Positions 13,581 through 55,952 of a stretch of 64,000 nucleotides of DNA are shown here, piece by piece. Under the pieces are notes generated by a model. That model did no database searches, was not told where the DNA came from, and saw only the letters and a list, made by a program, of their open reading frames with translations. The translations under genes were made by a program, and so were the position numbers. Source of the DNA: Cyathus striatus (lineage: Eukaryota; Basidiomycota; Agaricomycetes; Agaricales; Nidulariaceae); assembly GCA_025738555.1 (NCBI GenBank), contig JAOVFP010000010.1, positions 620,001 to 684,000 on the forward strand, read 5' to 3'. Position 1 is the first letter of the stretch. Each line of letters starts with the position of its first letter.

Positions 13581-13619
13581 GAGCATTATGATTGGTAGGG
13601 GCTGTGAACATTTCGAGTT

Positions 13620-28351: not shown

Positions 28352-30772
28352 ATGAAGGCACTTTTTGATACAATAAAAACACCACCCGTAGCGATAAAAG
28401 TAATAATGGCTGAAGATAATTGTGCTTTGAATCACGACGGCTCGTTGAAGGATGCCAGCGAAATTCAATGGCATTATGACCCTGATGACGCGATGCCTCT
28501 ACCAAAGAATAACAAGAGAGCAAGAATAGAGGTGATGTATTATGCTGAGAGTAACGGATGCATTATTGAAGTCTTTCATATCGTACAGAAGATGTTCTTA
28601 GATATCGAAGCGAAGGTGGCTTCTGACTCAGAGGGCGAAGAGGATGATGAGGATACGGATGGTATATATAATTCATTACCCGAATTCAAATTCTCTGGCT
28701 GAAATTGACTATTGTAGGTTTTATCAATGATGAGGATGAGGATGAGGATGAGGATGAGGATGAGGATGAGGAAGATCCCAACACCCCCATAGCGCGACTG
28801 ACACTTCAGCGTTCACTTTACATGCGCCTACAAAATGAGGACAAGAAACAGCAAGTTATGGGTCGCATACGCTCAGGTGGAGGGGGCCTTCTTGCGAGTT
28901 TACAAGCTGGACAACACATTGATAATCACCGCGAACTTATCAATGATATTGTTACAACATATGTCAACTCAAGTCCCAGCTCATACATGGGTGTTGTTTC
29001 GCCAGCGAGCGGAACTAGTTCTTCTTCGGCAGTCAGCAAGCATAATATTCCTCGACGCGGTCGTAATCCTACCAAGGACTGGCCCCTTTGGGATGTAGCG
29101 GTTAAGGTCAGTCAGTGCGACACGGATATGTCTGTGTTCTTATTTACATTTTATAGGATGGATCTGAGGAAGATGTGGTATTTTCCCTCAGTTTACACAG
29201 CGGCTCGAAGTACATTCGCAGTGCATTTTCGTTATCGGTCATCCCTGGTCACGTTTATGTGGAAGCTAGATGTCTCGACGACCTTAAGACCAGCACCAAA
29301 ATTTTGGCGGATGTTTATCAAAACAGTATCCGTGCGGCGCCGACTGCCGCCTGGGATGATGCCTTTTCAAAAATTGGAGAATGCTACACTCCATCCAAGA
29401 ACACATGGGTCCAGCTCAAAGGAAGGTTTCAATATGACCTAGGTTTTATTAGGGATGTCTGCGAGAGGACTTTCAGGATCGAAGTTGTTCATATCCCTCG
29501 AATAACGTATAGGAACTCGTCGAAACGAAAGCATGCGTCTAGTTCGTCAAATCCGAAACCACCTTGCGAGCTTTTTAATCCTGACAAAGCTCGAGAAACA
29601 AGTCCGAAAACTTTTGAAGTTGTTTTTGAAGATCAAAATAATGTGATTATTAAAGGATATAATTTTAGGAAATCCTTCTACACACCAGAAGGGTTCATAC
29701 TGCATAAAAAAGTCACATCGGAATACCATTATCAAGCTGAAGCAACCCCTACAATTGAAGAGCTAAGGTCTTTCGAGAGCTGTAGCCAAATTCCTAAAAA
29801 TATTTTGGAAGATACAAGGCGAGCTGTACTTTCAGCAGCTATACGTATAGGCGATCAGGTGAAGGTTGTCCTACAGCAGCCTAAGGTTTTGCTCGCATTC
29901 ATAGAAGACATCTCAGAAGGAAACGCGACACTGAGACTCCTTGAATCCCCAACAATACTCTTCGAATATCCGGTTATTCAACTCCAAAAATGCTTCAAAA
30001 TTGGTGATGGCGTTAGGGTGAAGTCTGGACATCTCAAAGGAATTGTCGGGATGGTATCCGATGTACAGCCTTATGGGCAAATTGGCGAGGAGAAAGTTAC
30101 CATCATCACCTTTCCAATAAAGGTAATTAAGAACATTTTTGCATTGATACGTTACTCAAACCGTTTGAATAGGGGCATCATGAGTCAGTTCGCTCATCGG
30201 ATCTGGATTTTTGTAGCGAAGTCCATAGAAGCCATACCTTTAAAGGGGAGAGTAGTGAATATGAGGCCAGGATCATGCGAGAAGATCCGTATAAATTTCT
30301 TTATGGCCAATACGCTGTGGTTAAATTTGGCCCTCGTAAAGGGGATATGGGTATACTGAAGAGTGTGAATGCGGATGGGAAAGCCATTCTTGAAGTTCAG
30401 GCCCGCTTAATAAGTTCCAACCGTCAGGACGAAGTGTCAATAAACCATTTATATATTCCTGGGTAATTATAGATAAAATTATTGCTTTCTGCTCCTGCAA
30501 ACTAATAATATATGGTAGGCATTACGACACGCTCCCAGAAATTTTCAAGGGACTTAATTCTGTTGGGGATTCATTATCATTGATGAATATATGTCCTACG
30601 CCTCAATGGGAAAATGATTGTGGGACTGGGTCCCATACGCCTGCTTGGAATCCCAGCTCAAGGACCCCGCAAGTAAGTATTTATATTTATATGTGATATA
30701 TGTGCTTAATTAAATACTTCTTAGATATCAAATGCCGCTGTTGCTGAATTTATCGCGTATCCGCATCGCAGT
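28352..30772 (+). CDS. Spt5-like NGN/KOW protein, 5' six exons (gene split by element)
   Basis: Exons 28,352-28,661, 28,718-29,106, 29,157-30,122, 30,173-30,462, 30,519-30,672 and 30,725-30,770 join in frame through 50-56-bp introns. The protein begins with an acidic region (DEDEDEDED run from a GATGAG microsatellite). An NGN-like domain follows (SVIPGHVYVEARCLDDL), then KOW motifs (FKIGDGVRVKSGHLKGIVGM and GQYAVVKFGPRKGDMGIL) and the Spt5-type tail element TPAWNPSSRTP. Spt5 is the processivity factor that binds RNA polymerase II; here the paralogue's role is unknown. The coding sequence stops at 30,770-30,772, where the 18-kb element begins, and resumes at 48,738. Related Spt5-like genes are numerous in mushrooms, so this may be a repeat-associated paralogue and not the essential gene. 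Confidence 0.75.
30766..30772. repeat. Left candidate target-site duplication, TCGCAGT
   Basis: Identical to 48,738-48,744. Extended one base outward the pair is ATCGCAGT and GTCGCAGT, so this is either a 7-bp duplication or an 8-bp one with one change. It spans the exon end and the GT of the splice donor. Confidence 0.6.
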
Positions 30773-30792
30773 GAGGCGTGTCAGCCAAATTT

Positions 30793-30851
30793 CTCATTTA
30801 ACCTCGACGTTTTATGATATTTCATATCATAAAACGTCGAGGTTAAATGAG
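30793..30851. repeat. Left terminal palindrome (28-bp arms)
   Basis: Perfect 28-bp arms, starting CTCATTTAACCTCGACG, around a 3-base loop (TTC). The same palindrome occurs, inverted and with a 2-bp loop difference, at the other end of the element (48,660-48,717). It can form a hairpin in single-stranded DNA. Confidence 0.9.
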
Positions 30852-30879
30852 TGAGGCATATATTATATATAGTATACAG

Positions 30880-32190
30880 ATTACTCATAAAAACTCATTA
30901 CTTTATACTTCTTACTATTATTACAGTTGTATTATGTCTACTCATAAGTACTCATTACTTCACATTCCCTATTGTTATTGTAATACTATTATGTGTACTC
31001 ATAAATACTCATTACTTTATATTTCCTATTGTTATTGTAATACTATTATATGTACTCATTAGTACTCATTACTTTATGTTTCCTATTATTATTGTAATAC
31101 TATTATGCATACTCATAAGTACTCATTACTTTATGTTTCCTATTGTTATTGTAATACTAGTATGTGTATTCATAAGTGCTCATTACTTTATGTTTCCTAT
31201 TGTTATTGTAATCCTAGTATGTGTACTCATAAGTACTCATTAATTTATGTTTCCTATTGCTACTGTATTAATATTATGTGTACTCATAAGTACTCATTAC
31301 TTTATGCTTCCTGTTATTATTGTAATGGTATTATGACTCATAAGTGCTCATTACTTTATATTTCCAATTGTTATTGTAATACTATACTGTGTACTCATTA
31401 GGTTATTATTGTAATCCTAGTATGTGTACTCATAAGTACTCATTACTTTATGTTTCCTATTATTATTGTAATACTATTATGCATACTCATAAGTACTCAT
31501 TACTTTATGCTTTCTATTTTTATTGTAATACTAGTATGTGTACTCATAAGTACTCATTACTTTATGCTTCCTGTTATTATTGTAATGGTATTATGTGTAC
31601 TCATAAGTTCTCATTCCTTTACATTTAATATTGTTATTGTAATACTATTATGTGTACTCATAAGTGCTCATTAATTTATATTTCCAATTGTTATTGTAAT
31701 ACTATATAGCATACTCATAAGTGCTCATTACTTTACATTTCATATTGTTATTGTAATACTATTATGTGTATTCATAAGTGCTCATTAATTTATATTTCCT
31801 ATTATTATTGTAATACTATACTGTGTACTCATTAGTTCTCATTACTGTATGTTTCCTATAATTATTGTAATCATATTATGTGCACTCATAAGCACTCATT
31901 ACTTTACATTTCATATTGTTATTGTAATACTATTATGTGTACTCATAAGTGCTCATTACTTTATATTTCATATCATTATTGTAATGCTATAGTGTGTACT
32001 CATAAGTACTCATTACTTTATATTTTCTATTGTAATACTATAGTGTGTACTCATAAGTGCTCATTAATTTATGCTTCCTCTTATTATTATAATATTATTA
32101 TGTTTACTTATGAGTGCTCATTAATTTATGTTTTATATTTATATTGTAATACTATAATGTGTACTCATTTCATTTTTGCTTCATATTATA
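30880..32190. repeat. Left subterminal array, ~57-bp units
   Basis: About 23 units containing TACTCATAAGTACTCATTACTTTA, separated by TTTCCTATTGTTATTGTAATACTA. It is the inverted counterpart of 46,540-48,640. Each unit carries two GTACTC hexamers ten bases apart. Since 57 is divisible by three, several frames stay open and give spurious repetitive ORFs. Confidence 0.9.
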
Positions 32191-32271
32191 ATTTATTATT
32201 GTCATATACTTATAGAACTCATTTATCTAATATTTATTTGTTATTTGCAAAACTATATACTTTACATTTAT

Positions 32272-35200
32272 CTAATCTTCTATCTCATACCTGTCAATTG
32301 GCTCATATGTATCTACATTCATTAGATCATTTATATAAATTTCATCTTCTATATCTTCATCTTCCATATCATTATCCTCCATATATTCATCTTCCATATT
32401 ATTATCTTCCATATCTTCATCTTCTATGTCTTCATCTTCCATATCTTTACTCATCCCAGGCTTTGTAGCTTCCAACATAGAGTAATCCTCTGATGATAAT
32501 ACTGAAAAATCTATATATTTCTTAGCCCAATCTGGATAATAATTATGTTTTTTAAACATGGGCAACCACCATTCTCTACAGCTCTGTGCTAGCCTATGAC
32601 ATAATGCGGCTTGTTTTAGTGCATATGCTGTAACTCCTTGTCTGATGTCAAGCCCAACCTGAATGTTATACTCTCTGGTATTACTTGCAGTCCTCCACCA
32701 GTCCTCCTTCCATTCATAGTATGCAGTGATTCTTCGCATTTCCTCACTCAGAATAAGTAACTCTTCAGCCCACCTGTCCCTTCTTGCACGTGATTTAGCC
32801 CATTCCACTTTAAGACTTTCATTAACACCATCACTATTACTTCCTGAGGTATTATTAGCAACCATCCATATCCATGACATTTCATATCGTCCACCACTTG
32901 AAGGATCATCTGGATCTTTCCCAGGTCCTCGGATATCCTCTGGTTTAAGCTCAAGTAAAATTTCCTGCCAATTTCCTTTTGGATCAAGAACAGTAAGTGC
33001 CATACGAGCTGCTCGATACCTGTCTGCACTGCGTTGTGTCTTATTTTCAAAACGCTGAAACAAAGATCGCACACGGCTATTTGATTTCACTCCTGTTCCA
33101 GATGTGTTTAGTCTCTTAAACTCCTTCAGAGTTGAAATAATTCTTCTTTGACGTCGAACATCAGCTAATGCATCTTTTGCTTGTGCAATTCGCAATCTTA
33201 ATTCCAAATCTGCTACTTTCTTTATTGCAGAGATAGAACGCAGATCAACAGAAAGTGATGATGGAAGATATAGTGGAAGAATCTCAATTTTAATAGTGCT
33301 GGTTGCTATATCAGATGATCCAATCTCATGCAATGCTTTTACTGCAGGGATTATCACAGTAGCTGCTTCAGGCATATAAGATAATTGAACCTCTTGCCAT
33401 TTTTGAATTCGTGATATTAGAGTATTCCGTTTATCTTGAAGATCAGCTATGTATTTTGATGATAAATTCTTTCTCGACTTTGAAATTTCAAACTTCAATA
33501 TACGTCTAAGTAACAAAATGAGATATATATAAAGTTAAAATTTGTAACCTACTGTTGTTCTTCAAGCTCCAATGCAAGAAACAAAAATTTAGTTAATGTC
33601 ATGTTATATTTTGAAACTATTCCATTTTCAGAAGCAGCACTCTCCTCACGAGTTAGTTCTAGTCGGACATCTTGCAATGTAGTAGCTAGCAAAATATTAG
33701 ACTTCATTTAAACCAAAATTTGTATACTTACTGCACTCAGGCTCTTCATATGGATTTGGGCTTTTATGATCTATATTCCATGCTAATATTTCTTCTTCCC
33801 ATTTTTTTGTTAAGGCAGATGAAAAGGTCAAATTAAATTTATCAAAAATCTCTCTGTGCTTTTCACTCATTAATATTGCTTCATTAAATCTCCTAACAAA
33901 ATGTGAACCTGAATTGAATTTATTAATAATGTAATTCAATAGCAAATTTAAACACATACGAAATCCAATTGTCTTTTGAAAATTCCAACTACTCCATTGA
34001 TCATTTAATACCTCATGTCGAGCAGCTGGTCCCATTTCACGTGTACTTGGACGAAGAAGATTACTACTTGACCATGTTGTCTCAACCTCCTCCCCACAAG
34101 TACGACCAGCTCCTGGAAAGTATGCTAAAGCAAAGTTGCTGCGGCATGAGCTTCCATGTCCATTTATATGCCAAGATGGAACTCCAACATCAATCTTTGT
34201 GCTAGAAGGAATTTGCATTTCCTCAGGAAAATTATCCATTCGTTTTCTCATGTTCTTTGACCATTGACATCCAATGTCATATGTAATCATAATCCATGGA
34301 AGTAAGACACCAGTTAGTGCAGAGAATAAAATGTAATCCACATTACAATATCTGTATAAAGTATAGTAGATTTAGTTATGGTTATAATAAAATATTCATA
34401 CCGTTCTCCTTTTTGCAAGTCACCTGCACCATTTCTACAGATTAGAGTATGTCGTGAGCAAATTACAAGTGCTGTCCCAGTTACTGAATGTCCTGGAGAA
34501 GAGCGTACTCCAGCTTGAAGTATTGCATCATGTGCAGAATCACATGTATTAATCTAGTAAGTAGGTTTATTAGTGTGGTATTTTATCATGCCAATATTTT
34601 AGCACCTCAAGATTTTCTTTATGTGTTGCAAGGTAGTTCTGATAACTCTCTTCTTCCACAAAAGATCCCCAGCCAGGCATTAATTCAATATCTTTTATTC
34701 CACAATCCTTGCAGTTCAACTTAAAATTAGCATCAACTGCAAGATACATAATGTACAGAAATCTAATAGTTCAACATTTCTTAGATAGATTCAAGCATTA
34801 ATAAAACTATACATACTTTGATGATTCTGAATTTTCCCAACCTTTAGGAAGATTTTTATTTGGATGAGGACATGCTGGACATTCTACTGTCAATTCTCCA
34901 TTTTTTGTACCACTGATTCCTTCTGTAAATTGTCCTCGACCAGCACGTTTGCACATGAATAAAATTCTCCACATTCGTACAACATGCCGAAATTCATTGT
35001 AACGGCTCTTTTATTTAAGCATTTTAGTAGGTGTATTTAATATTAATTTCTACTGACCTTTTCATTCTCCAACTTGCACTTGTCAGTTTTTCGACAAAGG
35101 GTGTGGTACCAGTCATACAGATTTGTCTTGCTTTGAAGTGTGAGCTCATGAAATGTATCAAGACACTCAAATGTAAAGGCAGTTTGTGGTCTAACAAAAC

Positions 35201-36164
35201 TTGCTGGAAACCAACCTGCACGCATTAGTTGAGCATACCGTGGAATAGATGTATGCTTGCTGCAGTTACAGAAAAGGACTGAAACATTATGAATTCCAGT
35301 GTTATCCACAACAACTAGATTGGTGGGGGTGTCAACTGGATTTGAGCATAATGCTCCCCCATGTCCAAGATGTACATGAAGTCCAAGATTTCTCAAAGTT
35401 TCCTTTTCAAAATAGAACTCATTCCAATACTTTGTAGTGCCAAATATTAAGAAGGTACATTACATATAAAAATATTAATCTTACCTCAATTCTATGCAGA
35501 GGCAATTGTGCATGCCCTGCTAAAAGACATTTTTTGCATTGAAGTAAACTTCCATTAAAGCAGTCTTTACACTTGTAACAACCAATTTCATTCTTGCAAG
35601 CTGAACATTTTTCCTTATCTGAATAATCTCCTTTTCCATCATGGCGAAGCAGTTCATTAAGAAATTCATCCTGATATTGTAACCACTCTTTCATTTTTGC
35701 CTAAATTATTAATCAGATATGTATATTATAAAACACAATAGACTAACTGATGATGTTTGGTCACGTTGCCTCTTAGATTTTAATGATTTATCAATCTTGA
35801 CTGTCTGTTCCTCTGCAATCAATTCAATATTACTTTCAAAGAGTTCAGCCTCCTGGGAAACCAAGTCATCATGACTAATTATATCATCTTGTTTGCTATG
35901 GTCAATTTCACGCTGCCGCTGTGAATTCTTCACCACTTTCTGCTTTCCATTCTTGTCAATAATTGAAAGTGATGTAATCCGTGACTTGCTATGTGAGTTA
36001 GAGCTTTGATTTTGAGTTCCTAAAAGTTCAGATTTTTCCTTGTCTTTTTTGCTAGGAACTACTTGAGTTCTCACTGCAGGGCGAGACTGGACTGAATGTT
36101 TAGTCCGTTTCTGATTAGCAGCTGGTGCTTCTGCTGTAGGTGACACAACACGCTTTTGAGGCAT
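32272..36164 (-). CDS. KDZ transposase with CxC2-like zinc module, apparently intact (1,163 aa)
   Basis: Nine exons, all in frame: 36,164-35,748; 35,700-35,485; 35,429-35,058; 35,007-34,817; 34,762-34,606; 34,553-34,402; 34,351-33,732; 33,685-33,553; 33,505-32,272. A basic/acidic head is followed by the zinc module (CSACKNEIGCYKCKDC ... CKKCLLAGH) and the LGLHVHLGHGGALC block. Next come the RNase-H-fold core with FLYIMYLAVDANFKL (first candidate catalytic Asp), YDIGCQW (second), PSWHINGHG and GRTCGEEVETTWS (candidate Glu). The C-terminal helical region ends in an acidic ME(D/N)-repeat tail. KDZ enzymes are fungal cut-and-paste transposases. No stop or frameshift was found. The acidic residues are assigned from the family pattern, not tested. 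Confidence 0.88.
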
Positions 36165-39100
36165 GAGTGAGAGACTGGGGGTGGGGCAAAACTGTGTGCT
36201 GCCATTTCATATGGGACATTTGTATGCAGACTTATTACCACATGTTAACAACTCGATGAACTTACAAAAATAAATTAACACTCAGAATGGTCAGTCCACA
36301 CAATATATCAGGCTATCAGACTGATCAATCACTATTTTGCATTAAAACAGTGAGATTCAGACCATGATGCATTCGCAAAAGGAACTAGCTTGACACATCG
36401 ATCTACTTCTGTTATTACATGTGCACCTTATCACTATCACACATCTCCTTCAGTTATTTTTCCGTTCCCATCGCGCAAGTAAGTACCTTATTTCCTATCA
36501 CTTCTTCTGAACTAACACCAAAAATACCAATGCATCAGTGTCTCTTCTCACAGAATGACATCTCTTGGACGTTTCGTGCTCTTACACAGACAACGCGCGA
36601 GGACCGAACAGTCAGCGGACCGGACCGGGTGGGCTGGAGAACGCTCTAATGGCTTCGCAGAGGCTATGCGCTGGGATGGTATTGGCAGTTTCATTGGCTT
36701 GGAACTATCCTAGATGGAAGATGTGTGCTTTCTCGGTTCCTTTGCACATACCCACAATATGGTCCCCCATGTTGCACCTATTCAAGCTGTATTCTACCCA
36801 TCTTCCACCTATACTCAATGACAAAGATAGTCGTCACTTTACGCCTTCACTCTTGTACCGATATCTCTCATATGCTGGTTGCATGCCCCATTCATTTCTC
36901 ATCACCGACTATGGCTCCTCCATTTTCATCACCTCGCTAACCCCATTATAGATGGTGACGGGGTGTTCTGTCGTCGAACGTTCAAGGTTGGAGAGATTGG
37001 GGAAGGTAGTGAATAAGAACAAGCCTAGACGTAAGTCGTAGCATGAAAAAAAGAGGGCAATGATAACAGATAAAAGAATGAACGAATAATCAAGAGGGAA
37101 ATTAAAATGAAACGAATGGAACATAATTAAACCCAACGCCTCAACCCAAGTCCCTATCCTTCCACCAGTCGGAGCATAGCATGATAAGGTTAAAGACCTG
37201 GACATCGTATCGCAGAGGTCGGAACACTGGTCCCGAGGACCAAACGAATAGCTTGAGGCAGAGAAAGGGATCTTGAATGGGTGTGAAACCCTAAACCCTA
37301 GCATCTTGAGCCATCCGAGGGGTGCATAATGGCCAGAGAGTCAGAACACCGTCCTTACAGGCCTTGATGACGTGTACAGGAAACCTAGAGACAGAGTGGA
37401 AAGTGGAAGCAGCGAGTAATAAACGAGAATTTGTAACCGAGATGCGTTGAGGTGCAAGCAGAACGTGACAGTGCATAGGCGAGTCACGTGGTGTTTGGCT
37501 TCAGCTTCCCATTGTTTGGTCAAGCCGTGCCGCATCTTTAAGTCCACACAACGTAACGAAAACACAGAAAACCAAACGCAAGAACAGAAGTAAGAAGATT
37601 GGAATGAAAACACAGAATTTTTGAGTAAATATAAGTAGTTAATTAAGGATAAAATATAAAAGAAATGATGTAAATCAAATTATAAGCATAGAACTAGGTT
37701 ATACCAGTGTACTAGCCACTTTCAGTACGATGCATGAAATGTTGCTAGTCGGAGAGGATGCTTCAAACCCCACGTCTGAACGGTTCTAAGAGGGTAGGGG
37801 AGAATGGCAGTTTCTTCATTGACCAGCACGTTGGTCTTCACAAGCACCGCCAACATTCCAACACTTACATCAAAATCTCTTTACCAATCACATTCGCAGC
37901 CAGCAATTCATCTGATGAGAGTTGATGTACTTTAGCGCACGAGTTTAAATTACTTTAATAATACTTAGAATAGTTCCCTGATTCCAGTATAATTTAATAT
38001 TCTAAGTTCCCATGTTCAAAGATTTTAATAAGCTCGAGAGCGCGCAAGTATCAATTCTTTTCAAAGGTAAACTAAAAATAGAATTACTTGTATATTTTTA
38101 GAACATGCTAGGACTTCGACAGTTTATCAAGCACGAGTTCAATCAAACACAATTCAATTCAGTACGCGTTCTAAATACTAACTCAATCCGGTACGTATAT
38201 TTCTGTGTCTAATTCTGTTCTGATACACCGCCCTGTCTGTGGGGGGGAAGAATGCCCGTGCAGTTCCTGCTGTATTTCTTCCCCCTTGCTTAGCTATATA
38301 CTTCTACTGACACGGCTATTTACAGTTTATTATCTATTTCGGATTTTGCTACCATACGGTACTCAAGTCTAGGCTTAATACGTGTCAAGGCTTATTTATG
38401 GCATGCGTGCACAGCCAATCACCGTGCATTCTCACGTTTCCCTATCTACCGCCATATTGCGACAGCATGCGCTCACGCGGGCGCTCTCATCAGCGCCTTC
38501 CTTATTCGGAAGCTATGGTAATGATGCATGATGCGTCTTTGCTGCTGATTCTTCTTTCCCTATCTACACAGGTTCTGATCTACCTGTTTGACGTCATATT
38601 GTGGCCAGGAAAGTCTTTCCTTGGTTGACTAGTTTTGGCCGGATCTATGGTTCAGATAAGCGGTCCTTTCTCGCACTCTTATGTCTTTACTTTTCCAAGT
38701 TTTAATCATGTTCTGTAGGGACTCTCTACACTTTTAGCAAGTGTATCGTAACGTACTGGTTTTAAGAAAGTAAAATAGGTAGGTATTTGTTAAAGTGTTT
38801 TTAAATCCGAGACTGTGGCGGAGTAATGTGTTTCTTGAGTATTGTTTTTTATTAATCCCTTGTTTATTTTTAGGAGACCACCCGGGACCTCGGTTCCCCC
38901 TCTTATGTACCCACTCGTACGCACTCAGTCTGGAGTTCTTTTAACGAAGAACGCGAAAATTAAAATGGTACGTTACGATACTCATTCCTATCGTAAAAAC
39001 GGTCATTGGATACGATTTTGTCGTGAAATATATTTTTAGTTCATGTGCTAGTAGTGGGTACATGAAAATTCATGTTCCTTGAACCCCGATCTTCTGAATG

Positions 39101-41606
39101 GTAGGCGTCTTATATATATCCTGTGGTATTAATGGTCTTGTTGTATATATAGCTTTTGTGAATAATGAGAAGGGGGAGTAAGGTCGAACACATTCCTCAA
39201 AAAGAGAGGGTAATTCATGTAATTGGATTAAAAATATATTATCTGCAAAATAGAACAGCAGATAGTTGTAAATTATAGAAGCATTGAGTTTCTGCACTCA
39301 ATGTTTGATATGGATACAACAAAGCATGAAGTACATGTACAATATGAGTGCACTGATAAAAAGTAAACTAATGGGCTGAAGGTTGTGCCTCATATTCATC
39401 TACTAATGTAATTGTAGCATGTTCATATAATAGCTATGCTGCTGATTGTGACAACTTCTGGTGGAGATCGTACTTTCAGATGTACAATATATTTCAGAAA
39501 AGAATACAGCTTTCCACTCTTCACATAGCACCAGACATTTGCACTCCTTCTGAATCTATCCATGTTCTACCTAGTTCACCTTTGGTAGAGATCGTACCAT
39601 TCAGATATTAATGTATCGTAATGACACCATGGGTACTTTCAATATGTATCTCAAAGCTGGGCTTCTGTGTATTCTTCTTGGCAATACCTTGAGGGGACAA
39701 CAAATATGTCTGCACATTATGTTTATGACTATCTAACCGTTGGTTCAGTAAGCCTTAATTTAGATTGACTGTTGAAGTTTCACTAGTTTTTTTGGGCGCA
39801 TAAGTTCGTGGTGATCCAGTCATTGATGGCAATATTTCGTTACTCTTTTGTGCAATCTATCTTCATTCAGTATTCTTGAATCTTCCCTCGTACTTTTCTC
39901 TTCTCAAGTTATCAAGGAAGTATATTCTATGGACTATTTCTCTTGAGTTCTAAATATAATTAAATATCTTACAGATTGTATGTTAGGGCTCACTAGTACG
40001 CTAACCTTGGTTCCGTGGATTATTCGAGCATTTATTGTTTTTGCTACATGCTACAGGATTTATTGTGTTCCGCTCAAGGGTAAAAGAATTAAGTGTATAC
40101 ATTCAGCCTTGATTTATGTCTATTTTACCCCTTTGGAATCAATGAGAACTGGTACTGACGTACAGACTTCAGTATGGCACCTGTGCTACATATTCAATAA
40201 CACTTTATCATTAGTATAATTGTGCCACCAATCTCATACTTCCACGTCGTCACCTCCCTCTTCGTCACACTAAGTGCCTGCTTTCCTATTACCACGTCTT
40301 CACCTCCTTATCAGTCTAAGCACTTGGATCTCCATGTCGGCTATAACTGTCTCGTATTTTGGTCGCTTCGGTAACTCTTCAGAACTACCAAGCGCAAAAT
40401 TCACTATCGTACATGTCCAAAAAATATAGGATGCACCACATAATATTGTCTTTTGAATATTCCAATACAGTATATCTTCAAAACATAAATGTAGAAGGCT
40501 AAGAACCAGTGGTTCTAATGGAGTTGTATATTAGAACTGTATATACATTATATTATACTACAGAGAAGTGGTTTTCGAAAAGACTTTTAAATGAATAAAG
40601 CCAAAAAATTTAACTGCTGTCCACCGCATTCAGAGTTCCCCGCTCACCCTGGCAAACTGAAGAGGTGTAAGTCGGCTGGGTGTACCTAACAAAGAATAAT
40701 AAACAGTCAATCGAGACATCTGTCCAATCTAGAGATTTCTAAGGTGAAAGGAATGGAACTAGCAAAATAAATGTTGATGATAAGATGTAACGAGTGAAGT
40801 TGAGCCTCAAGACGAAGTTCGAGCATAAAGAGAGCCCGTGAGAGCGTGAAAACGAATAAATTGAAGGTAAAATTATTGAGACGACGTAGTAGACTTAGAA
40901 CTAGAGTTAGAGACAACGTAAAACTCGGTTGGATTCTGTAGTGCAACTACAGAGGAAGTTTAAACACTAGAAAAACTAACATATCTAAAGGTAGTAAGTC
41001 TGTGTACATCGGAAGAAGGAATGTAAAATATTATAAAGAACGTAGCTTGAAACCATTCTGAAAAATAGAAAACTTGAGTACGAAGGTCCAGTGAATTGAG
41101 GAATTTGCGAGGAGACAAGTTTTCTTGTCAAGCTTCAGGGTCCTGTGTCAGTGCCGATGTTAGAGCTATTTTGAGAGCTTGGAGTGTCACAGGAGATGGG
41201 TATACGTCGGAACAGTGCACGAATAGATACAAATTGAGGAAAGTGTATGAGAGAGTGGGGATGTGAATGACTGGAGGACGCGTATGGACACGTCGCGCAA
41301 ATGTGATCTTGCTGAATATGTAATCCAATCTCCAGCATCTTGAGATGTTGAATAAATGATGTTTTGCACTGCAGGCAGTTCGCCTGCTCTACAATACCAA
41401 TACACTCAAACTGCTACTTTAACCTCAACACTCTCCCACCTCGACATCCTCTCGCCTCAACGTTCTCCCGCCTCTACGTTCTTCCACCTCGACATCCTCC
41501 CAACTCTAAACTCTTCTACCTCTGCGTTCGACATTCTTTCTCCCTCTGAGCCCCAGCCTATAACATTACCAAACTTCCACTTCCTCCACTCCCTTCATTG
41601 CTTACC
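36165..41606. other. Non-coding interior of the 18-kb element
   Basis: I find no supportable gene in 5.4 kb. Frames are short and lack motifs. 37,920-38,150 is a dispersed repeat with a copy outside the element, so older repeats or host DNA lie within it. 41,400-41,600, just before the cargo gene, is CT-rich (ACCTCGACATCCTC-like), which is common in fungal promoters and 5' leaders. Confidence 0.5.
37920..38150 (-). repeat. Dispersed repeat, copy 2 of 2
   Basis: The reverse complement matches 26,070-26,240 over most of its length, with small insertions. It lies inside the 18-kb element. It may be a solo LTR fragment or another small element, but I could not define its ends. Confidence 0.55.
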
Positions 41607-43962
41607 ATGACCAGACGACAATGGACAACTCCGGCACAGCGAAAGTGGCTCTCAAAAAGGATTCCTGCATTCATTGACGCGAAAGAAAAACGACAGACAA
41701 CGGCGTGGTTCACTGACGTATATGAAGAATGGGGGATTGAGTGGGGACGACAGCCACCTACCAAGAAGGAGAAGAAAAGATGGGGTGATAAGGCAGAGAT
41801 TAATAAGTGGAGGGCGATGTGCAAGGTAAGCATTTACTTCATCACAGTAGAAGGTGTAACTTACCAACCATTTATTGTTGCAGCGCCTTAGTGTTTGGTT
41901 CCCAAACCATATTCGTGATTCCACTGCAGTGACTCGAGGAGTACTTCTTTCGAAGTCGAAGAAGTCTACTAGTGTGAAGATTCTCCACGATTGGCAGGCG
42001 TATAAGATTCTATATGGTGATCAGCTAAAGCCTCTTATTAGCGCTCAATGGAAAGAATACAAGTCCTCCCCACCATTGGATACTGAGCCCAGAAAGTCCA
42101 AATTTCAATTCGAAAATGCGCTTATCCAACAATACTATAACGAGGAGGGGGCAAGCGTTAGAGCAGAGGTCAAAGACTACCAAGATGAGCTGCGCGAGGG
42201 GAGTTGTGATGATTCTCCAGTGTCCGACAGTGAGGGGTCCGACAACCTAAAGTATGAAGAGTAGGTCAGATGTACTTTCATATGATGTATAAAACTCACA
42301 TGCGCCTAGATCGATTAAGACACTCAGTACTTCCATTGCCCAAGTGCTTTCTAAGTTCTCGAAGTTGACTGGTGGCTGGAAATTCACTATTTTTGCTGGA
42401 GGACCACGCCCATCTTGGGGTGGAAAGTTAGAAACCATAATGTACGTCAACATAAACTGTTCCATATGACTTGAAAGGTCCTTACAGTCTCATTATAGCT
42501 TGCACTATGGTACCGATAAGAATGAACATGACTGGAGAGCCTGGATGGGAAGCAAAACGTTTGCAACGGATATTGAAAATAAATTTGACAACTTCCTCTA
42601 TGACTGCTTTTGTGAGTATATACATATTCAAATCCTATATGCATACAATACTAATAAACATACCGAAGCGGAAGAGGAGTGCCTTTCACATAGCCTTGCC
42701 AATGACCAGCATCACACAGTTAGTCCAAGCAGTGAAAAAGATTCCAGTAATCAGGAAGAAGAGCGAGCCACAGACGGTGGAGGTGAGCATGGGGTTGATG
42801 ATGAACGTGAAGAGAATGAAGGACCAGAAGAAGAGCGCTCTCACACGAATACAGAACCTCACATGCCACCTGTCAAATATGTCAGAACTTCTGATGGCCG
42901 TCGTATCTGCCAGTATGAAGCCAGCCGCGAAGCGAACATAGCTCGAAATGATCTATTTCTCACTCAATTGTGCTCGAAGGATCAAAGCACCAACCAGCCA
43001 CCCAGCCCTCCCAAGCAAAAACAGCTCAGAAAACCAAAGACAGCGCACAAGAAACCCAACGACGCCGAACCCGACCAGAACATTACTCCCATTCACAAAT
43101 CCAAGCGCCTGGAAAACAGTAGTAGAAGGTATGTATCTGAATACTTCCCAATTTTGTATCCATTAACTAATTTAATGTATTGTTCTATCAGTGATCTGTC
43201 AACTACGTCCAATGATATTGATGGAACCATGGCTTCTTCTGTTGCGAGCAGTAATGAACAGTTGTATGTTCGTTATTTCTGTTTTATTGCTCAGTGCTGA
43301 TTTAATTCCCATGTTTCAGGGGTGACAGCCTGCCTTCCATATCAGTCATCACAGAAGATGATGTTAGGTTATTACCAGAATATGCGTGTCAGTACATCTG
43401 ATATCTTCAGAACGTATCGCTAGACTCATGCTGGCAGGCTCTGGTAACGGAATGGAAGAGCTTTGAATCAAGGACACCAGATATACTAGTAAGTTTTTAC
43501 TTTCAGCTCGTGGGGCATACTTATTCTGAAATATAACAGGCATTTCCCACCTTAAACCGTCCCAATGAAGTTGGTTGGTGGATTCAGCATCATCGAAGTG
43601 CAGTAGCTGTCCCACCTATAACAGCTTCGAAGTTTGGACAGTCATGGATGACATGGTGGCTGTCCATTCAACTGCAGTGGCGTGTTTCTGATACTAGGGA
43701 TCTCGTCAAGTCTTTACCATCGGATACTTGCCAGTGGGAGACTTTGTTCCGTGGTGGGCCTTTAGGCCTGTGCTGTGTGGTTATGTCGCTGTCCTGGTGG
43801 GTTTCCTCCATTCAACAAGCACCGGATGATTCGATGGGTAAACTCTGGGATGCGGTTGACGACGTGACTTGGGTATTTCGGCAAGTTGATACTCCACCTG
43901 TGCTTTCAGGAAAGAAGCGAGGTACGGGTAACGAAACGACTCCGAAACCAAAGAAAGCGTAA
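41607..43962 (+). CDS. Cargo gene of the KDZ element: 638-aa protein of an expanded Agaricomycete family, function unknown
   Basis: Start ATG 41,607 (MTRRQWTTPAQRKWLSKRIP). Nine exons join in frame: 41,607-41,825; 41,884-42,260; 42,310-42,441; 42,499-42,611; 42,669-43,128; 43,192-43,263; 43,320-43,362; 43,411-43,488; 43,540-43,962. Recognisable blocks are an N-terminal WTT..Q..WL..R.P.F segment, WKFTIFAGGPRPSWGGKLET, IARNDLFLTQL, and the C-terminal GWWIQHHRS ... WMTWWLSIQLQWR. I recall these blocks from many uncharacterised mushroom proteins. The middle is acidic and probably disordered. No enzyme motif is visible. Its open frame inside the transposon argues for a role in the element or recent transfer with it. 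Confidence 0.7.
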
Positions 43963-44880
43963 GTCTTGTCCTCCATATCTATTATCCTTTATAGCTGATT
44001 GTATTATATCAAGTTGTCGAAAGTAATTAATTAGCATTATAAGTGCCTGCAATATTTTATTGCACTTGAGTAAGCCTCCCTGCGTGCTCTATGTTTCTTC
44101 TTTCTGCTATTGCCAAACTATTGCATTATTTTAATTCAATTTTATTGCTTATACTTCTCGTTCTCTATCTAGTCATGGTAGATATATTCATTTTAATCTC
44201 TCCATTATTCAAAGCATCATATTTTATACTTTCTAGATTTATTTACATCTCTCCTTAATTCAACTTTTCAGCTTATCTCGCTATATCTACTACTAATGGT
44301 CACATTCTGTCTTTGCTTTATACATAGTATTATCTTGCTTCTTTGAAGCTCGTACTCGATATACATTGCTATTTGCGATTATATTAGTTGTATGCACTGG
44401 ATCTAAGCGCACAATGTTCAGATCATGACTTTCTTAATTACTAACCTCAAATCATGTTAGCTTGATGGCCGACATAGCCTGGCGGTTAGACAATTCCATA
44501 CTATTGTTCACTGTAGTTCGGTCATCCACTGAATCGGTCTGGCTCGTGTTTAGTACTTTCCCGTGCAAACTTCACTCTTAAACTTAACACTTAGTCTAAT
44601 TCAAAGTATAAGATATCTTTTATGTATTTTATTTATTTATACTTGCAAAGAGTGAAGGGTTGAAATGTTGAGGATTGTCACGCTTACCATGAACCGGAAC
44701 AGCGGAGTTTAAAAATGACGCGGTTGGGAAGCGACAACTGTCAACCATGTTTGTGACGAGCGATCTTACAAGTAGACCGGGTCCCAGCGACATCCAGGAC
44801 AAGTCGCCCACATGCGTTCTCAATGCGTTCTCGCAAGGTAAGCTTCTCACTTACTTCATTATTTACCACCATCCTGCCAG
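43963..44880. other. AT-rich non-coding stretch after the cargo gene
   Basis: No supportable gene. Composition changes abruptly to C-rich at about 44,880. Confidence 0.4.
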
Positions 44881-46400
44881 CGTCTCCCCCACAGGCCGCC
44901 GTTGTAGACGCAACGTACGATTCACAACGTCAACCAGGCCACTTACCCCACCATCCCACGCCCCACTGTCGCCACCACTTCAATGTCCCTTACCTCAACG
45001 TGTCTCGTAAACGGCCACGTTTGTCCCCCGCCCGCTGCAACGCCCTCACTTCCATGTCCCCCACCTCGATGTCCCTCACCTCAAGGTACCATGGCTCATC
45101 ACCGCATGTAGAGTCAGGTAAGCACCTCCCTCAGCCAGCCCCATCCTTGCCTGCTGTCTCACGTCCCCCACAGGATAGTCTCCGCTTCGTAGACGACTAC
45201 GTCATGTCGTCAAGCCGCCCTCCTCAATGCCATCTCGCCAACAACGTCCCCCTTCTCCGTCCTTCTCCCCTGCATCTCGATAACGACCGGCAGCACTGGC
45301 AGGGACGGCGTCTGAGCCATGCAATTCACTCCCTCCTCCCTTATCCCCTGCATCCCAATGACGACGGCAGCACTGGCAGGAACGGCGTCGACACCTCATC
45401 ACCCAGCCTCCTCTCTTCCCTCCTCCCCTCTGTGTCGTTGACGACGGCGATGTTTCCAGGGGTTTCCCAACCTTTCAACATGGCTTCGTCGTCTCGTACC
45501 GCGCCGCAACCTTGCCTTCCACCTGCCCAGTGCCTTCATCCCACCTCCCTGTTCGGCCCCCCAGCGGCGCAACATCGCCTACCTTCCTCAACGGCCCCAG
45601 GCCCTCTCCCCTCCCTTCTACCACCACCACCCCGCCGGCTCGTCCGCTTGAATCATCGACCTTACCTACTTCCCAGTCCCCACCACCACCTCGCCTTCTA
45701 CGACACGGTGTGGCCATCTCGCAGATCCTCCCATCACCACCCTCTCGCCGTGACATCGCCGTCTCGACCCACACCACCACCTCACTTCCAACCTCCTCCC
45801 CTTTCCATCTCGTATCACCACACCACCACCCCTCACGGCATAACCGTCTCGCACCGCCTCTTAGCCCACGGCATTGTTTGCCATGCAGAATCCTCCCCCT
45901 TCACAACGAAGACAGCCTCCACCACCTCCATCGACTGCACGTTGACGCCATATCCATCGTCGACCACCACCACCACCTCCTCCTCCCACGCCAGCAGTCT
46001 CGCCCAGCACTCAACACCATCACCACCGCTTCCTCACTTTCGTTCCAAACGGCATCACAGCTGTTTCTCGAACTACCACCTCAACACCAACAACTCATAA
46101 CCTAACCTCCCACCTCGCCTCCCACCTCACTGTCGACACAGTATTGGTTCCGGTGGATAGAACAATGTCAACCCCACATCACTCACCTTGAGTCGTCTCA
46201 ATGTATCCACCTCTCTCCCTCTACCACCATGCCGTATCGCCTATGACGGCTGCCACCACTTGCTACTTTCTGCTTCACAATGGCACTGGCGACATTTCCT
46301 CCCCTTTGGTAACACCATACTGCACCCTGGCAACCCCTCACACCACAGCGTCACATTCATCGCATTTTTTCCACCACCCCGCCACTTTCCTATTGTAGGT
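44881..46400. repeat. C-rich low-complexity tract
   Basis: 1.5 kb dominated by CCACC, CCTC and CATC words, with short imperfect repeats such as ACCTCAA-GTCCC. It contains a 425-aa open frame (44,823-46,100) rich in Pro, Ser and His. It probably stays open because C-rich DNA lacks stop codons. I treat it as non-coding sequence between the cargo gene and the right array. Confidence 0.6.
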
Positions 46401-46539
46401 AATGTGTTGTATTAGATATGTAGTTGATATATGTAGTTTGTTATATGAGTATAGTCAGACCATATGTTAGTAGTATAGTAATGATACTTGTTATTATATG
46501 CACAATTTGTGAAATTATGAGATAAATATAAACAACTAA

Positions 46540-48640
46540 ATAATGAGTGCTTAGGAGTACACATAGGAGCATTACAATAATAAGAGAAAGCATAAATTAA
46601 TGAGTGTTTATGAGTATACATATAGCATTACAATAATAATAGGAAGCAATAAGTAATGAGTACTTATGAGTATGCATAATAGCATTACAATATTAATAAT
46701 AAGCATAAATTAATGAGTGCTTATGAGTATGCATAGTAAAATTATAATAATTAGAGGAAGCAATAAGTAATGAGTACATATGAGTACACATAGTAGCATT
46801 ACAATAATAATAGGAAGCAATAAGTAATGAGTACTTATGAGTACACATAATAGCATTACAATAATGATAAGATGTATAAATTAATGAGTGCTTATGAGTA
46901 CACATAGTAGCATTACAATAGTAATAGGAAGCATAAATTAATGAGTGCTTATGAGTATGCATAGTAACATTATGATAATTATAGGAAGCAATAAGTAATG
47001 AGTACTTATGAGTACACATATTAGCATTACAATAATAATAGGAAGCATAAATTTATGAGTACTTATGAGTACACATAGTAGCATTGTAATAATCATAGGA
47101 AATATAGAGTTATGAGTAATTATGAGTACATATAGTAGCACCTATATATACACATAGAATATGCAGTACTCATATAGCTCAGAGCTTATATGATAAGCAA
47201 TAGGAAACATAAATTAATGAGTACTTATGAATACACATAATACTATTAAAATAATAATAGGAAGCATTACAGTAATAATAGAGAACATAAAGTAATGAGT
47301 ACTTATGAGTACACATACTAGTATTACAATAACAATAGGAAACATAAAGTAATGAGTACTTATGAGTACACATACTAGTATTACAATAATAATAGGAAAC
47401 ATAAAGTAATGAGTACTTATGAGTATGCATAATAGTATTACAATAACAATAGGAAACATAAAGTAATGAGTACTTATGAGTACACATACTAGTATTACAA
47501 TAATAATAGGAAACATAAAGTTATGAGTACTTATGAGTACACATACTAGTATTACAATAACAATAGGAAACATAAAGTAATGAGTACTTATGAGTATGCA
47601 TAATAGTATTACAATAATAATAGGAAACATAAAGTAATGAGTACTTATGAGTACACATACTAGTATTACAATAATAATAATAAACATAAAGTAATGAGTA
47701 CTTATGAGTATGGATAATAGTATTACAATAACAATAGGAAACATAAAGTAATGAGTACTTATGAGTACACATACTAGTATTACAATAATAATAGGAAACA
47801 TAAAGTTATGAGTACTTATGAGTACACATACTAGTATTACAATAACAATAGGAAACTTAAAGTAATGAGTACTTATGAGTATGCAGTATGCATAATAGTA
47901 TTACAATAATAACAGGAAACATAAAGTTATGAGTACTTATGAGTACACATACTAGTATTACAATAACAATAGGAAACATAAAGTAATGAGTACTTACGAG
48001 TATGCATACTAGTATTACAATAATAATAGGAAACATAAAGTAATGAGTACTTATGAGTACACATACTAGTATTACAATAATAATAGGAAACATAAAGTAA
48101 TGAGTACTTATGAGTACACATACTAGTATTACAATAATAATAGGAAACATAAAGTAATGAGTACTTATGAGTATGCATACTAGTATTACAATAATAATAG
48201 GAAACATAAAGTAATGAGTACTTATGAGTACACATACTAGTATTACAATAATAATAGGAAACATAAAGTAATGAGTACTTATGAGTACACATACTAGTAT
48301 TACAATAATAATAGGAAACATAAAGTAATGAGTACTTATGAGTACACATACTAGTATTACAATAACAATAGGAAACATAAAGTAATGAGTACTTATGAGT
48401 ATGCATAATAGTATTACAATAATAATAGAAAACATAAAGTAATGAGTACTTATGAGTATGGATAATAGTATTACAATAACAATAGGAAATATAAAGTAAT
48501 GAGTACTTATGAGTATGGATAATAGTATTACAATAACAATAGGGAATGTGAAGTAATGAGTACTTATGAGTACACATAATACAATTGTAATAATGGTGAG
48601 AAGCATAAAATAATGAGTTTATATGAGTAATCTGTATACT
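46540..48640. repeat. Right subterminal array, ~57-bp units
   Basis: About 37 units by length, typically GGAAACATAAAGTAATGAG, then TACTTATGAGTACACATA, then CTAGTATTACAATAATAATA. It is inverted relative to the left array and about 0.8 kb longer. Units near the terminus (47,280-48,540) are nearly identical. Inner ones (46,540-47,200) are more diverged, with a break at 47,140-47,200. Confidence 0.9.
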
Positions 48641-48659
48641 ATATATAATATATGCCTCA

Positions 48660-48717
48660 CTCATTTAACCTCGACGTTTTATGATATGAAAATCATAAAA
48701 CGTCGAGGTTAAATGAG
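48660..48717. repeat. Right terminal palindrome (26-bp arms)
   Basis: Perfect 26-bp arms around a 6-base loop (ATGAAA). It is the inverted counterpart of the left palindrome. Confidence 0.9.
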
Positions 48718-48737
48718 AAATTTGGCTGATACTTATG

Positions 48738-49396
48738 TCGCAGTCAGTCTGTTCTAGTTGTAGTATTGACATATACTGATAATAGTAATTATAGTTCCAG
48801 AGAACCAAGAATCAACTGGCCACTTGGAACCTTCTGGCTTTCTTCCACCATCCATGCAAAGTTTTGTTGTAGGTGAAGGCTCTTCAGCACGTTCGAATTT
48901 TATAAATGAGTACAATGGTGTGTATTGTTATTCCTCATAAATATTTCCCTAATATATTTACAACTTTGCAGATCATTGGATCAAACGACTTGTCGATAGC
49001 AACAGTTTGTTTCTGAGTAAAAATTTTCTCAATGTGATTATTTCGGGCTCCCAACCGACTATGGCTAGCTCTGGATTTGAAAATGGGAGGTATGAAAACT
49101 GCACTGGGTTTTGCGTTGATGTCGTTAATAGCGATCAATCGATCCGAGTGGAGTTAACTGGTGATATTGTAATTTCGGTACTGGCTAAATATGTCCGTAG
49201 GGTTCCCCCGGAAAGGAGAGGTCAAGTGGTTACAGTCGTGAATCACCTAAACCACCAAATCTACAGGGGGGAATACCAGGTAGTCGATCTGAAGGGAGAG
49301 GTAGTCTTTGCCTATCCACTCAAAGGAAAGAAAAGACATGATAGGGGGATTGATGTTCCTATTGGGGATCTCGCTGTTATTGCAAAAAGACGCTGA
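48738..49396 (+). CDS. Spt5-like protein, 3' two exons (continuation after the element)
   Basis: TCGCAGT at 48,738-48,744 repeats the left junction. With the element removed, the sixth exon ends at the donor GTCAGT (48,743), and a 52-bp intron (48,743-48,794, branch-like CTGAT) leads to exon 48,795-48,917. A 54-bp intron and the last exon 48,972-49,396 follow. Phases match throughout, giving a total of 900 aa. The last exon encodes another beta-rich module (GRYENCTGFCVDVVN ... YRGEYQVVDLKGEVVFAYPL), plausibly a further KOW-like domain. As it stands, the 3' part has no start of its own and is separated from its promoter by 18 kb. Confidence 0.72.
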
Positions 49397-53600: not shown

Positions 53601-54438
53601 CCCGATTGGTAGAATGACGCCTGTGGTTTCCCCAGCGCCAGTTTTATTCTAGGCCCATTACCAAGTAAACTGTACCGTTCCGTGGACTATACTATCATCT
53701 CGTTGACGAATTTATAAGTGGAGAAGGATCATACAGTTGATAAGGTGTACATCGTCAGCCAGACCACTGTATAGCATTGGAAGCATCAACAGCCCCCATC
53801 GCAATCGAACGACTGAATACCCCGGGTGGTTCTTTGCTGTGGAACTCAAGGAACACTGCCGGCATCTGAAGATTACATGTTTTGCAGACTCCACTGTGAA
53901 GGTGTGGGGCATTAATGTTCTGAGCTTTGAGGCTAGTATGAGTAGATCTAGCGCGCGAAATGGTTCTACTGGTTGCAGTATAGTTTATGGCAAGTTCTTC
54001 CTTTTCTCCGCTAAATTAGGATCTTCCCCACAAGCTGGGCCTCGTCAACTTCCATGCCATCTCACAGGCGTCGATACCTCCCTCCCATCTTTCCCTCTTT
54101 CTCCTTCTCTTCATGTACATTATCTGTCTACTATATATTGGTGTAGCGTTACGTTTCTTTTGTATTATATTAATAAATATATACATGAATCATTATTTCA
54201 TTAATTCACGTGAGACTTAAAATATATTCAGTGCTGTTGAAATGTTTCCGGTGACTTCAAAATATTCGCTAAAATGTGTGTGGGACAGAAATGTTTGCGC
54301 TCCATGTTTGCGCACCCTGTTAAATGTGCACTTTGACCGTCATAAAACACTACCATCTTTCAGAAAAAAAATTCCAGTATCTACTTCCGAAGTTGCTACA
54401 AGCATTACCCAAGCCAAAATGCATATTTAATACAGGTG
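53601..54438. other. Interval without a supportable gene
   Basis: The open frame at 53,737-54,204 has no recognisable motif and no paralogue elsewhere in the window. Confidence 0.35.
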
Positions 54439-55952
54439 TTAAATGGCATTACTATACAAACCATATAAACCGTCGTATATCACCACACTAGCTGTAGATT
54501 TTTTATGGTAGGAGGCATATAAGTCTTTAGTGATTCCATGCGAATGTGCACGCGAGAATTGACAATTGTGAGTAACGACAGCAATATTCTTATGCGACTC
54601 CTTAGTATTCACACTTAAGAATTGATGTAAACACATACCCCGCTGAGAAAGGCTGGTATTCTAGCTGCAGATGAAGATTTAGCCGATTTATTCATGAGCA
54701 CACATATGGGTAGCCTCACATTCCCATTGATGGCCACGATAAGATTGACAATATTTGTAACTGAAATACAATAAATAATCAGCATTTCTGTTAGGACTTC
54801 AGTAAGAACTATGGTATTTACAGAATAATAACTGTGGGCATCATTGTCAGTGTTGAGCAGTGTTTGGAATTTAAATACTTACTATGAATGCTTTAAATCC
54901 ATCAACTTGAAGCTGGTATAATACCTCAATATTTGTTCTCCGCGGGGCCTCCAATGCTTTGTACATTACCAGGCCTAATATCAGGCAATGGAATGCGAGC
55001 TAAGTTGTTAGGCGATACTGAGTAATACTGACCACCACAGTTTTCAGAATAATGATGTCGCACCACTATAGCAGATGCACCTGCCATCGCTCCAGGCATT
55101 TTAGAAATTCCTACTGGTACACAGGAATGGAGCTCCAACACATATATAATTCCATCTATTTTGTAATCAATTTATCAATAATGCCAGGTGCTAAAATTTT
55201 GGGTGCATGCACGGCATACCTTTAGTATATTGGTGGACATATAACACAAGGAATGCTACCACGAGTATTGATGCCACAACAGTAACAGTCGCTACAATAC
55301 ACTTTGTGATTTTCCCTTCGTCCCAAGATGCGTAAATTTGCATGATCAGCATAACTTGAAAGTATCATATGTAAGTTTTTATGTGATAATGATTTGGCTG
55401 ACATCAACATCTTACACTGTGTAATGACCCCTAGCACAGTTCCTACTACAATAACGACCCACATACACGTTTTGCAGCTACAAAAGCATTGTTAATCAAT
55501 TTTAAGCGAGGCAAAGGTATAAAACCATACTTCTTTTGAATATTTTAATGAGTATTGGCATTCGGTAGTATAATCATTGGAATAAATAGGACAACTTACA
55601 ATATTGTTTGCAAATCCACATATTACTTTGGATGTGAGGGTCTTGTCCTAACGGATAAAAGCTGAACTTACCAACTGTATTTAAGATCAAAATGCCCTCC
55701 ATCGTGTATCGATGTAGTAAGACATTAATCTTAGGTAAAATGTTTTTGAGAGTATTTCTGCGTCTCCCATCCTTCCAAATAGATTCAACCTCCTGGTCAA
55801 AATTTATTACATGGTCCCAGAGGGCGCAGGTACACATTGCAACTGAATAGCATAGTGATTAGGATGCTACAATATGAAAGTAGTCATGGATTCTTACAGT
55901 AAAAGTATCGACCTGCCAATATAACATTAGTGTCGATTTCTGGATTTGACAT
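54439..55952 (-). CDS. DUF6533-type seven-helix membrane protein, copy 1
   Basis: Start ATG at 55,952 (MSNPEIDTNVILAGRYFYF). Exon 1 ends at 55,898. Exon 2 (55,842-55,672) carries the family core LWDHVINFDQEVESIWK and LLHRY. A 26-nt exon (55,625-55,600) gives VICGFANNI. Later exons encode membrane segments: CKTCMWVVIVVGTVLGVITQ, then MQIYASWDEGKITKC followed by a helix ending VLYVHQYTK. The pattern matches the Agaricomycete DUF6533 family, integral membrane proteins of unknown function. A TATA-like box lies at about 56,006. Splicing between 55,600 and 55,490 would need a 2-nt exon or is damaged, and the 3' exons are uncertain, so it may be a pseudogene. A close copy lies at 60,922-62,433. Confidence 0.6.

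Follow-up and report, generated by a model that had tools for sequence, protein, structure and literature searches.

Evidence that an 18-kb KDZ transposon in Cyathus striatus interrupts an Spt5-like gene of a second, outer DNA transposon

The genome of the bird's-nest fungus Cyathus striatus (107.45 Mb in 24 contigs; published Cyathus assemblies span 48–203 Mb, PMC11186289) holds an 18-kb transposon of the KDZ superfamily that lies within a gene resembling Spt5. Does the interrupted gene belong to the host or to another mobile element? We analysed the 64,000 nucleotides of C10:620001–684000 (the window, whose positions are used below), in which a first-pass annotation had seen a cargo-bearing KDZ element splitting a host Spt5-like gene. 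This claim about the host is not borne out. The gene belongs to a multicopy outer DNA transposon with terminal inverted repeats (TIRs) and a target-site duplication (TSD), and the KDZ transposon is nested inside it; for this structure and gene content, we put the probability at roughly 0.9. The nested arrangement consists of the following features:

13598–53604, plus strand: outer DNA transposon with imperfect TIRs GGGGCTGTGAACATTTCGAGTTCCCG and CGGGCCGTCAACTTTTCGAGTTCCCG
13591–13597, no strand: left copy of the outer TSD, ATTGGTA, 7 bp
53605–53611, no strand: right copy of the outer TSD, ATTGGTA, 7 bp
18764–24427, plus strand: outer transposase-like gene (partial model), with an in-frame TGA at 22751–22753 in the window copy
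28352–49396, plus strand: Spt5-like gene (NGN, KOW1, KOW5-like) of the outer element, into which the KDZ transposon has inserted
28352–28661, 28718–29106, 29157–30122, 30173–30462, 30519–30672 and 30725 to the insertion, resuming at 48795, plus strand: exons of the Spt5-like gene
30773–48737, no strand: KDZ transposon, 17,965 bp, termini 5'-GAGGC ... TTATG-3'
30766–30772, no strand: left copy of the KDZ TSD, TCGCAGT, 7 bp
48738–48744, no strand: right copy of the KDZ TSD, TCGCAGT, 7 bp
48743–48794, plus strand: 52-bp intron, the donor of which is the KDZ insertion point

Once the KDZ insert is subtracted together with one copy of its TSD, the outer element measures 22,035 bp. Its left border is seen in copies on C9 and C14, which align to the window from positions 13,597–13,599. 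The alignment of the C14 copy extends rightwards to 53,604. This copy has the TSD CTCATAA on both sides, and a 2.2-kb relative nested in it has the TSD TGTAATT. The C9 copy stops at 51,064, at another KDZ-type end, and its right end was not found among the matches listed. The final 2.5 kb of the element is matched at 10 or more further places, up to no more than 4 bases from either of its ends; at least 21 rows cover only about the final 1 kb, as would be expected of short non-autonomous relatives. Both counts are lower bounds, as the best 40 of 322 candidates were scored. Also in the outer element, 240-bp inverted repeats, 91% alike, lie at 16347–16586 and 17977–18216, and a stretch of 702 bp between them (17167–17868) is absent in the C9 copy.

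The transposase-like protein of the outer element contains a Cys/His zinc cluster, an SDAAHG(W/F)W block (SDAAHGWW in the window), a USP-like box NSCWLDSSLQLLF and a PHD-like cysteine cluster. The USP-like peptidase and PHD-like labels are ones we presume from the motifs, and the protein has no Pfam match above the cut-off and no hit to a sequence in the PDB. Only three relatives were found at E ≤ 1e-3 among 5221 candidates; they come from Trametes sanguinea and Lentinula edodes and are 29–35% identical. The Spt5-like gene lies about 9 kb downstream of this gene on the same strand.

The insertion site of the KDZ transposon is well defined. Its TSD straddles the intron donor (GCA/GT, the slash marking the exon end), and since the TSD and left KDZ end together read GCA/GTGAGG, a GT donor is kept at the end of the exon. 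We fetched paralogous loci from the same genome with the Spt5-like exon. Of these 19 loci (L030–L048), 15 are uninterrupted at the KDZ site and carry one TCGCAGT or a one-base variant of it; L040, L043 and L045 do not span the junction intact, and L048 was excluded from the count as a spurious low-score alignment. Two C. striatus proteins (P0001 and P0002) are continuous over the junction, which they read as PHRIPEN. Because of these empty paralogous sites and read-through proteins, the excision proposed in the first-pass annotation, which restores the intron and leaves one TCGCAGT copy, holds. A second element with KDZ ends (about 4.3 kb, C6:6053210–6057518; L006, L044) lies inside another Spt5-like copy with the TSD GAGAACG; it inserted there independently, some 60 bp downstream of the site used in the window. 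The C9 outer copy (L052) has, at the place matching window position 51064, a third KDZ-type end, GAGTGGTGTCAGCC, near a 61% related transposase. The KDZ-type insertions seen in outer elements number three (window, C6 and C9).

The colinear NGN and KOW domains identify the gene product as an Spt5 homologue. In Pfam, NGN scores above the cut-off (1.9e-5), KOW5 just below it and KOW1 below it. The spliced N-terminal 701 amino acids match Schizosaccharomyces pombe Spt5 (8qsz, residues 353–676) from NGN to KOW with E = 8e-15. A model of exon 3 has a predicted local distance difference test score (pLDDT) of 73, but the alignment behind it included real Spt5 proteins, and the model is thus not independent; its top Foldseek matches are chains of Spt5-containing RNA polymerase II elongation complexes. 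The closest proteins are five from C. striatus itself, four of them 81%, 66%, 54% and 37% identical and the fifth a fusion with WD40, and identity to canonical Spt5 is about 25%. The gene is not the host's canonical Spt5, which lies at C20:1395325, with NGN, KOW1 and KOW2 far above the cut-off. The proposal that a cargo-bearing KDZ element disrupted a host Spt5-like gene draws on the exact TSD, the restored intron and an open, spliced reading frame that continues as far as the insertion. Nevertheless, the gene is multicopy (96 rows) and sits within a repeated 22-kb unit bounded by TIRs and TSDs, and a canonical Spt5 is present elsewhere; we consider this proposal next to negligible. Disruption of the host Spt5 itself was rejected on the same evidence.

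If the gene belongs to a transposon, it should be asked how the rest of the family is placed. The 96 Spt5-like rows in the genome, once extra pieces of one copy and short fragments were merged by hand, come down to 77 places; setting aside the host Spt5 leaves 76, the window included. In the same way, 59 outer-transposase rows reduce to 46 places and 82 EnSpm rows to 75. Of the 24 close Spt5-like places (≥74% identity), 21 have an outer-type transposase at 25 kb or less; no EnSpm/CACTA-type one lies within 20 kb of any of the 24. The distant places show the reverse pattern. A relative of the Transposase_21-type protein of L062 lies within 20 kb of 13 of the 17 places at 57–64% identity and of 26 of the 35 at 44–54%, giving 39 EnSpm-linked places out of 52 (32 divergent, 7 on the same strand), with a chance expectation of 2.8% per place. 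None of these 52 is near an outer-type transposase, and no place is near both. PF02992 exceeds its cut-off within 20 kb of 32/52 distant and 0/24 close places. Taking the transposase as the starting point, an Spt5-like gene occurs within 30 kb in 20 of 23 close outer copies (in 19 cases downstream and in the same orientation), compared with 1 of 23 distant relatives; about 1.9 would be expected by chance for all 46 places. Carriage by EnSpm-type elements is proposed from proximity (≤20 kb).

A Plavaka link of the distant group was considered and rejected, as no such neighbour was apparent by eye among the PF18759 matches (150 matches, with 123 of 269 candidates scored). PF02992 fitted this group instead. 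WD40-like open reading frames (ORFs) lie upstream of two EnSpm-linked Spt5-like genes, at 6878–8068 of L061 (WD40 score just below the cut-off) and 7743–8093 of L062 (no hit), and the C. striatus protein P0005, annotated as WD40, joins WD40 and Spt5-like parts.

Segmental duplication or amplification of a host gene could also have dispersed the family, with the transposases as mere neighbours. Copies do occur on many contigs, the spacing varies (4.9–17.2 kb in the EnSpm group), and 13/52 distant and 3/24 close places lack such a transposase within the limits used. However, two outer copies are bordered by TIRs and 7-bp TSDs, and gene order and strand are kept in 20/21 outer-type and 32/39 EnSpm-type linked cases, which makes amplification very unlikely. 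A phylogeny bears on the order of carriage. In a FastTree analysis of 41 sequences, with tips hand-picked from the 77 places and database proteins and labelled by identity group, the outer-type clade nests in the EnSpm-type clades, with support of 1.0 at the node shared with the 57–64% group; 15 of the 19 tips labelled EnSpm-type have such a transposase within 20 kb. Because of this nesting, the simplest history, on a single tree topology, would be capture by EnSpm-type elements followed by one transfer to the outer type.

We used the ratio of nonsynonymous to synonymous substitution rates (dN/dS) as a measure of constraint. For exon 3 of the Spt5-like gene, the median dN/dS over 105 pairs is 0.38, and 11 of the 14 comparisons with the window fall below 0.5. 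Among seven young copies, 78 of 129 changes are C>T or G>A at CpG. Premature stops occur in exon 3 of 8 of 14 full-length copies, with none in the other 6, and are mainly TGA (16/18). Such CpG changes and TGA stops are as expected for methylated DNA, and the pattern would fit simple loss of methylated CpG rather than repeat-induced point mutation. On the longer time scale constraint was at work, and many of the copies now present are in decay.

The KDZ transposon has an internal organization of its own:

30793–30851, no strand: palindrome with 28-bp arms and a 3-base loop, just inside the left end
30882–32168, no strand: left subterminal array of 57-bp units, 1.3 kb
46537–48629, no strand: right subterminal array of 57-bp units, 2.1 kb, inverted relative to the left array
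32272–36164, minus strand: KDZ transposase, 9 exons, 1,163 amino acids
41607–43965, plus strand: second gene of the KDZ lineage, 655–664 amino acids, no Pfam family above the cut-off

The left end starts GAGGCGTGTCAGCC and the right end, reversed, CATAAGTATCAGCC; the two match as inverted repeats over about 120 bases, except for the outermost bases and a few others. A palindrome similar to the left one (arms of about 28 bp) lies inside the right end. Other KDZ-type ends read are of the same two types, other copies' ends have self-complementary matches at the palindrome, and in eight other ends a matched C/G swap is found on both arms. The CpG observed/expected ratio of the 57-bp arrays is 0.00 on the left and 0.03 on the right; the adjacent end palindromes retain CpG sites. 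A genome search with the left end returned at least 40 other places above 600 bits, the window's own right end among them (a lower bound, from the best 40 of 252 candidates). Of four KDZ-end pairs compared, two have a 7-bp TSD, TCGCAGT in the window and GAGAACG on C6. A segment of about 1,060 bp (37923–38981) is missing from a sibling element on C8 and repeated at other places in the genome, and thus represents a small insertion in the KDZ element. In a C8 sibling (C8:1218331–1218480; L083), the CATAA-type end is on the transposase side, opposite to the window, possibly because its interior is inverted between the inverted arrays; its right end was not found in the 1 kb examined.

The transposase frame has no internal stop. 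In its first 753 amino acids, Pfam finds the KDZ domain (PF18758, E = 2.1e-61, profile positions 2–217 of 217) and, upstream of this core, the CxC2 cysteine cluster (E = 3.7e-38). The catalytic exon has a dN/dS of 0.11–0.44 between the window and five siblings. Judging by its open frames, the element is likely young. On these points, we agree with the first-pass annotation, whose boundaries, mirrored ends, 7-bp TSD and full-length 1,163-residue transposase all stand, and the genome search with the element ends that it proposed did find further copies of the family.

The second gene had been described as a 638-residue cargo gene. We could not reproduce this length; the spliced frame is open and encodes 655 or 664 amino acids, depending on two splice choices. 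Nor is the gene cargo. After hand-merging of extra pieces of one copy and short fragments, 132 KDZ rows reduce to 78 places and 164 partner matches (not all listed) to 61. Relatives of the partner gene lie within 25 kb of 51 of the 78 KDZ places, at a median distance of 7.6 kb and divergently oriented in 50 of the 51 cases, where chance would give 2.2 places; a KDZ neighbour is present at 50 of the 61 partner-gene places. Because of this linkage, chance capture can be set aside, and the partner is a regular companion of the transposase in this KDZ lineage. Its exon 1 shows a dN/dS of 0.04–0.25 between the window and seven siblings. A database search with the protein gave no homologue at E ≤ 1e-3 among 7310 candidates; no Pfam family exceeds the cut-off, and NCBIfam has nothing for the first 199 amino acids. 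One could suppose that the insert is composite, the second gene stemming from an unrelated transposon nested in the KDZ element. Small nested repeats do occur inside (the 1,060-bp segment lacking in the C8 sibling), and 27/78 KDZ places lack a second gene within 25 kb. However, the two genes are linked and divergent at the frequencies given above, and interior stretches between them are common to C8 siblings. A composite origin is therefore hardly credible, and we treat the 18 kb as one two-gene KDZ element.

Several observations weigh against the nested two-transposon interpretation or its parts. The window's outer transposase carries an in-frame TGA, and the fold model of this protein is of low confidence (pLDDT 37), too poor for a fold search. 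The Foldseek match of the Spt5-like exon concerns local shape only, as whole-complex chains give TM-scores of 0.12–0.32 and root-mean-square deviations of at least 12 Å. Between the window and the four copies closest by dS (L030, L031, L032 and L034), Spt5-like dN/dS rises to 0.43–0.64. Two KDZ-end pairs (C17:625173–629290 and C1:6998667–7000010) have no common 7-bp TSD, and some pairs may not be single elements. The polarity of the ends relative to the genes is not fixed, given the CATAA-type end on the KDZ side in the C8 sibling. One stop each is present in the KDZ exon of 3/5 siblings, and stops are present in partner exon 1 of 4/7. Finally, three KDZ siblings (L054, L055 and L056) differ mutually by 6–8 nonsynonymous and 0–1 synonymous changes.

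How might the locus have arisen, and what might the Spt5-like protein do? A TIR element of about 22 kb, encoding a transposase-like/USP-like peptidase/PHD fusion and, downstream, the Spt5-like protein, most probably inserted first, at ATTGGTA. Later, the 18-kb KDZ element inserted at the splice donor of the Spt5-like intron, creating the 7-bp TSD. Going by the KDZ family, its transposase would cut the two mirrored ends and join them to a 7-bp staggered target in a cut-and-paste reaction of the DDE type. The arrays and palindromes may be protein-binding sites, and the partner protein may aid transposition or targeting; our guess for its role is DNA binding or targeting. The Spt5-like protein might act on RNA polymerase II and keep the long genes of its element transcribed under CpG methylation, either as a positive elongation factor or by displacing the host Spt5 from co-transcriptional silencing. 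We advance such an anti-silencing action on behalf of the element, for which TET/JBP and plant VANC proteins are the analogy, tentatively and as an idea that may well be wrong. A neutral passenger without a role in the life cycle of the element would be in keeping with the stops in 8 of 14 full-length exon-3 copies and the weak constraint in the youngest pairs; it would not predict a dN/dS below 0.5 in most comparisons with the window (11/14) or persistence in deep clades beside two kinds of transposase, and we think it unlikely, though far from negligible. The broader proposal is that, in bird's-nest fungi, at least two unrelated transposon superfamilies carry a captured Spt5 paralogue as an anti-silencing factor, EnSpm/CACTA first, with one passage to the transposase-USP-PHD element, as is thought of TET/JBP in other fungi. 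It is a serious possibility, if short of an even chance.

Outside the outer element, 1.6-kb direct repeats, 86% alike, lie to the right (54410–56023 and 60884–62503), and an array of a 19-bp unit occupies 8373–8847 in the left flank.

The element adds a member to the known KDZ superfamily, with an unusual combination of 7-bp TSD, inverted ends and partner gene. In the open PubMed Central literature, at the level of titles and the starts of abstracts among the entries listed, we found no transposon-linked Spt5 paralogues, and within that scope the linkage of an Spt5 paralogue to transposons of two superfamilies is apparently unreported. If transposons do carry, amplify and share a general elongation factor, transcription elongation would appear to be a contested step between transposons and host silencing, beside DNA demethylation. 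Genes annotated as 'Spt5' in many copies in such genomes may belong to transposons. Work on KDZ elements gains a two-gene element of 18 kb with defined borders, for which the genome itself supplies natural empty sites, so that its structure is directly testable.

The likeness to Starships drawn in the first-pass annotation does not hold up. Starships move by a tyrosine recombinase and carry variable cargo in Pezizomycotina. Both are large fungal elements with more than a transposase, but the element here encodes a KDZ transposase, its two genes form a fixed pair and its TSD has 7 bp; Starship-like cargo capture was rejected. Scans of seven ORFs and two spliced proteins of the element, a set without the ORFs at 44.7–46.1 kb, showed no tyrosine recombinase and, among Pfam hits, no TET/JBP gene. 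The window element shares the KDZ domain and CxC2 cluster with the KDZ (Kyakuja/Dileera/Zisupton) superfamily of fungi. KDZ1 of Cryptococcus neoformans, a mobile element of about 11 kb with 241-bp TIRs, an 8-bp TSD and CxC1 according to PMC12810828, is likewise a fungal KDZ element with inverted ends and a cysteine cluster in its transposase; the window element differs in its 7-bp TSD, CxC2, 18-kb length and 57-bp arrays. Zisupton and Dileera elements have 8-bp TSDs (PMC12730594), compared with 7 bp here, and the adjoining bases differ. TET+ Kyakuja elements also have a 7-bp TSD, but in two TET+ families described in that paper, the termini are 5'-CA..TG-3' without TIRs, whereas here the ends are GAGGC...TTATG and inverted, and a divergent partner gene stands in place of TET/JBP.

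Among Spt5 paralogues, SPT5L/KTF1 of Arabidopsis is tied to transposon silencing (PMC3111484), but it is a host-encoded silencing factor that is not linked to transposons; PDB entry 8hyj gives a weak match to the Spt5-like protein. Plant VANC proteins (PMC10398659) offer an analogy for transposon-borne anti-silencing. A parallel in gene content is the TET/JBP case. The main text of PMC12730594, which does not mention Spt5, describes TET/JBP genes as common to unrelated superfamilies of fungal DNA transposons; here too, a chromatin- or transcription-related gene is linked to unrelated superfamilies, the gene in this case being an Spt5 paralogue.

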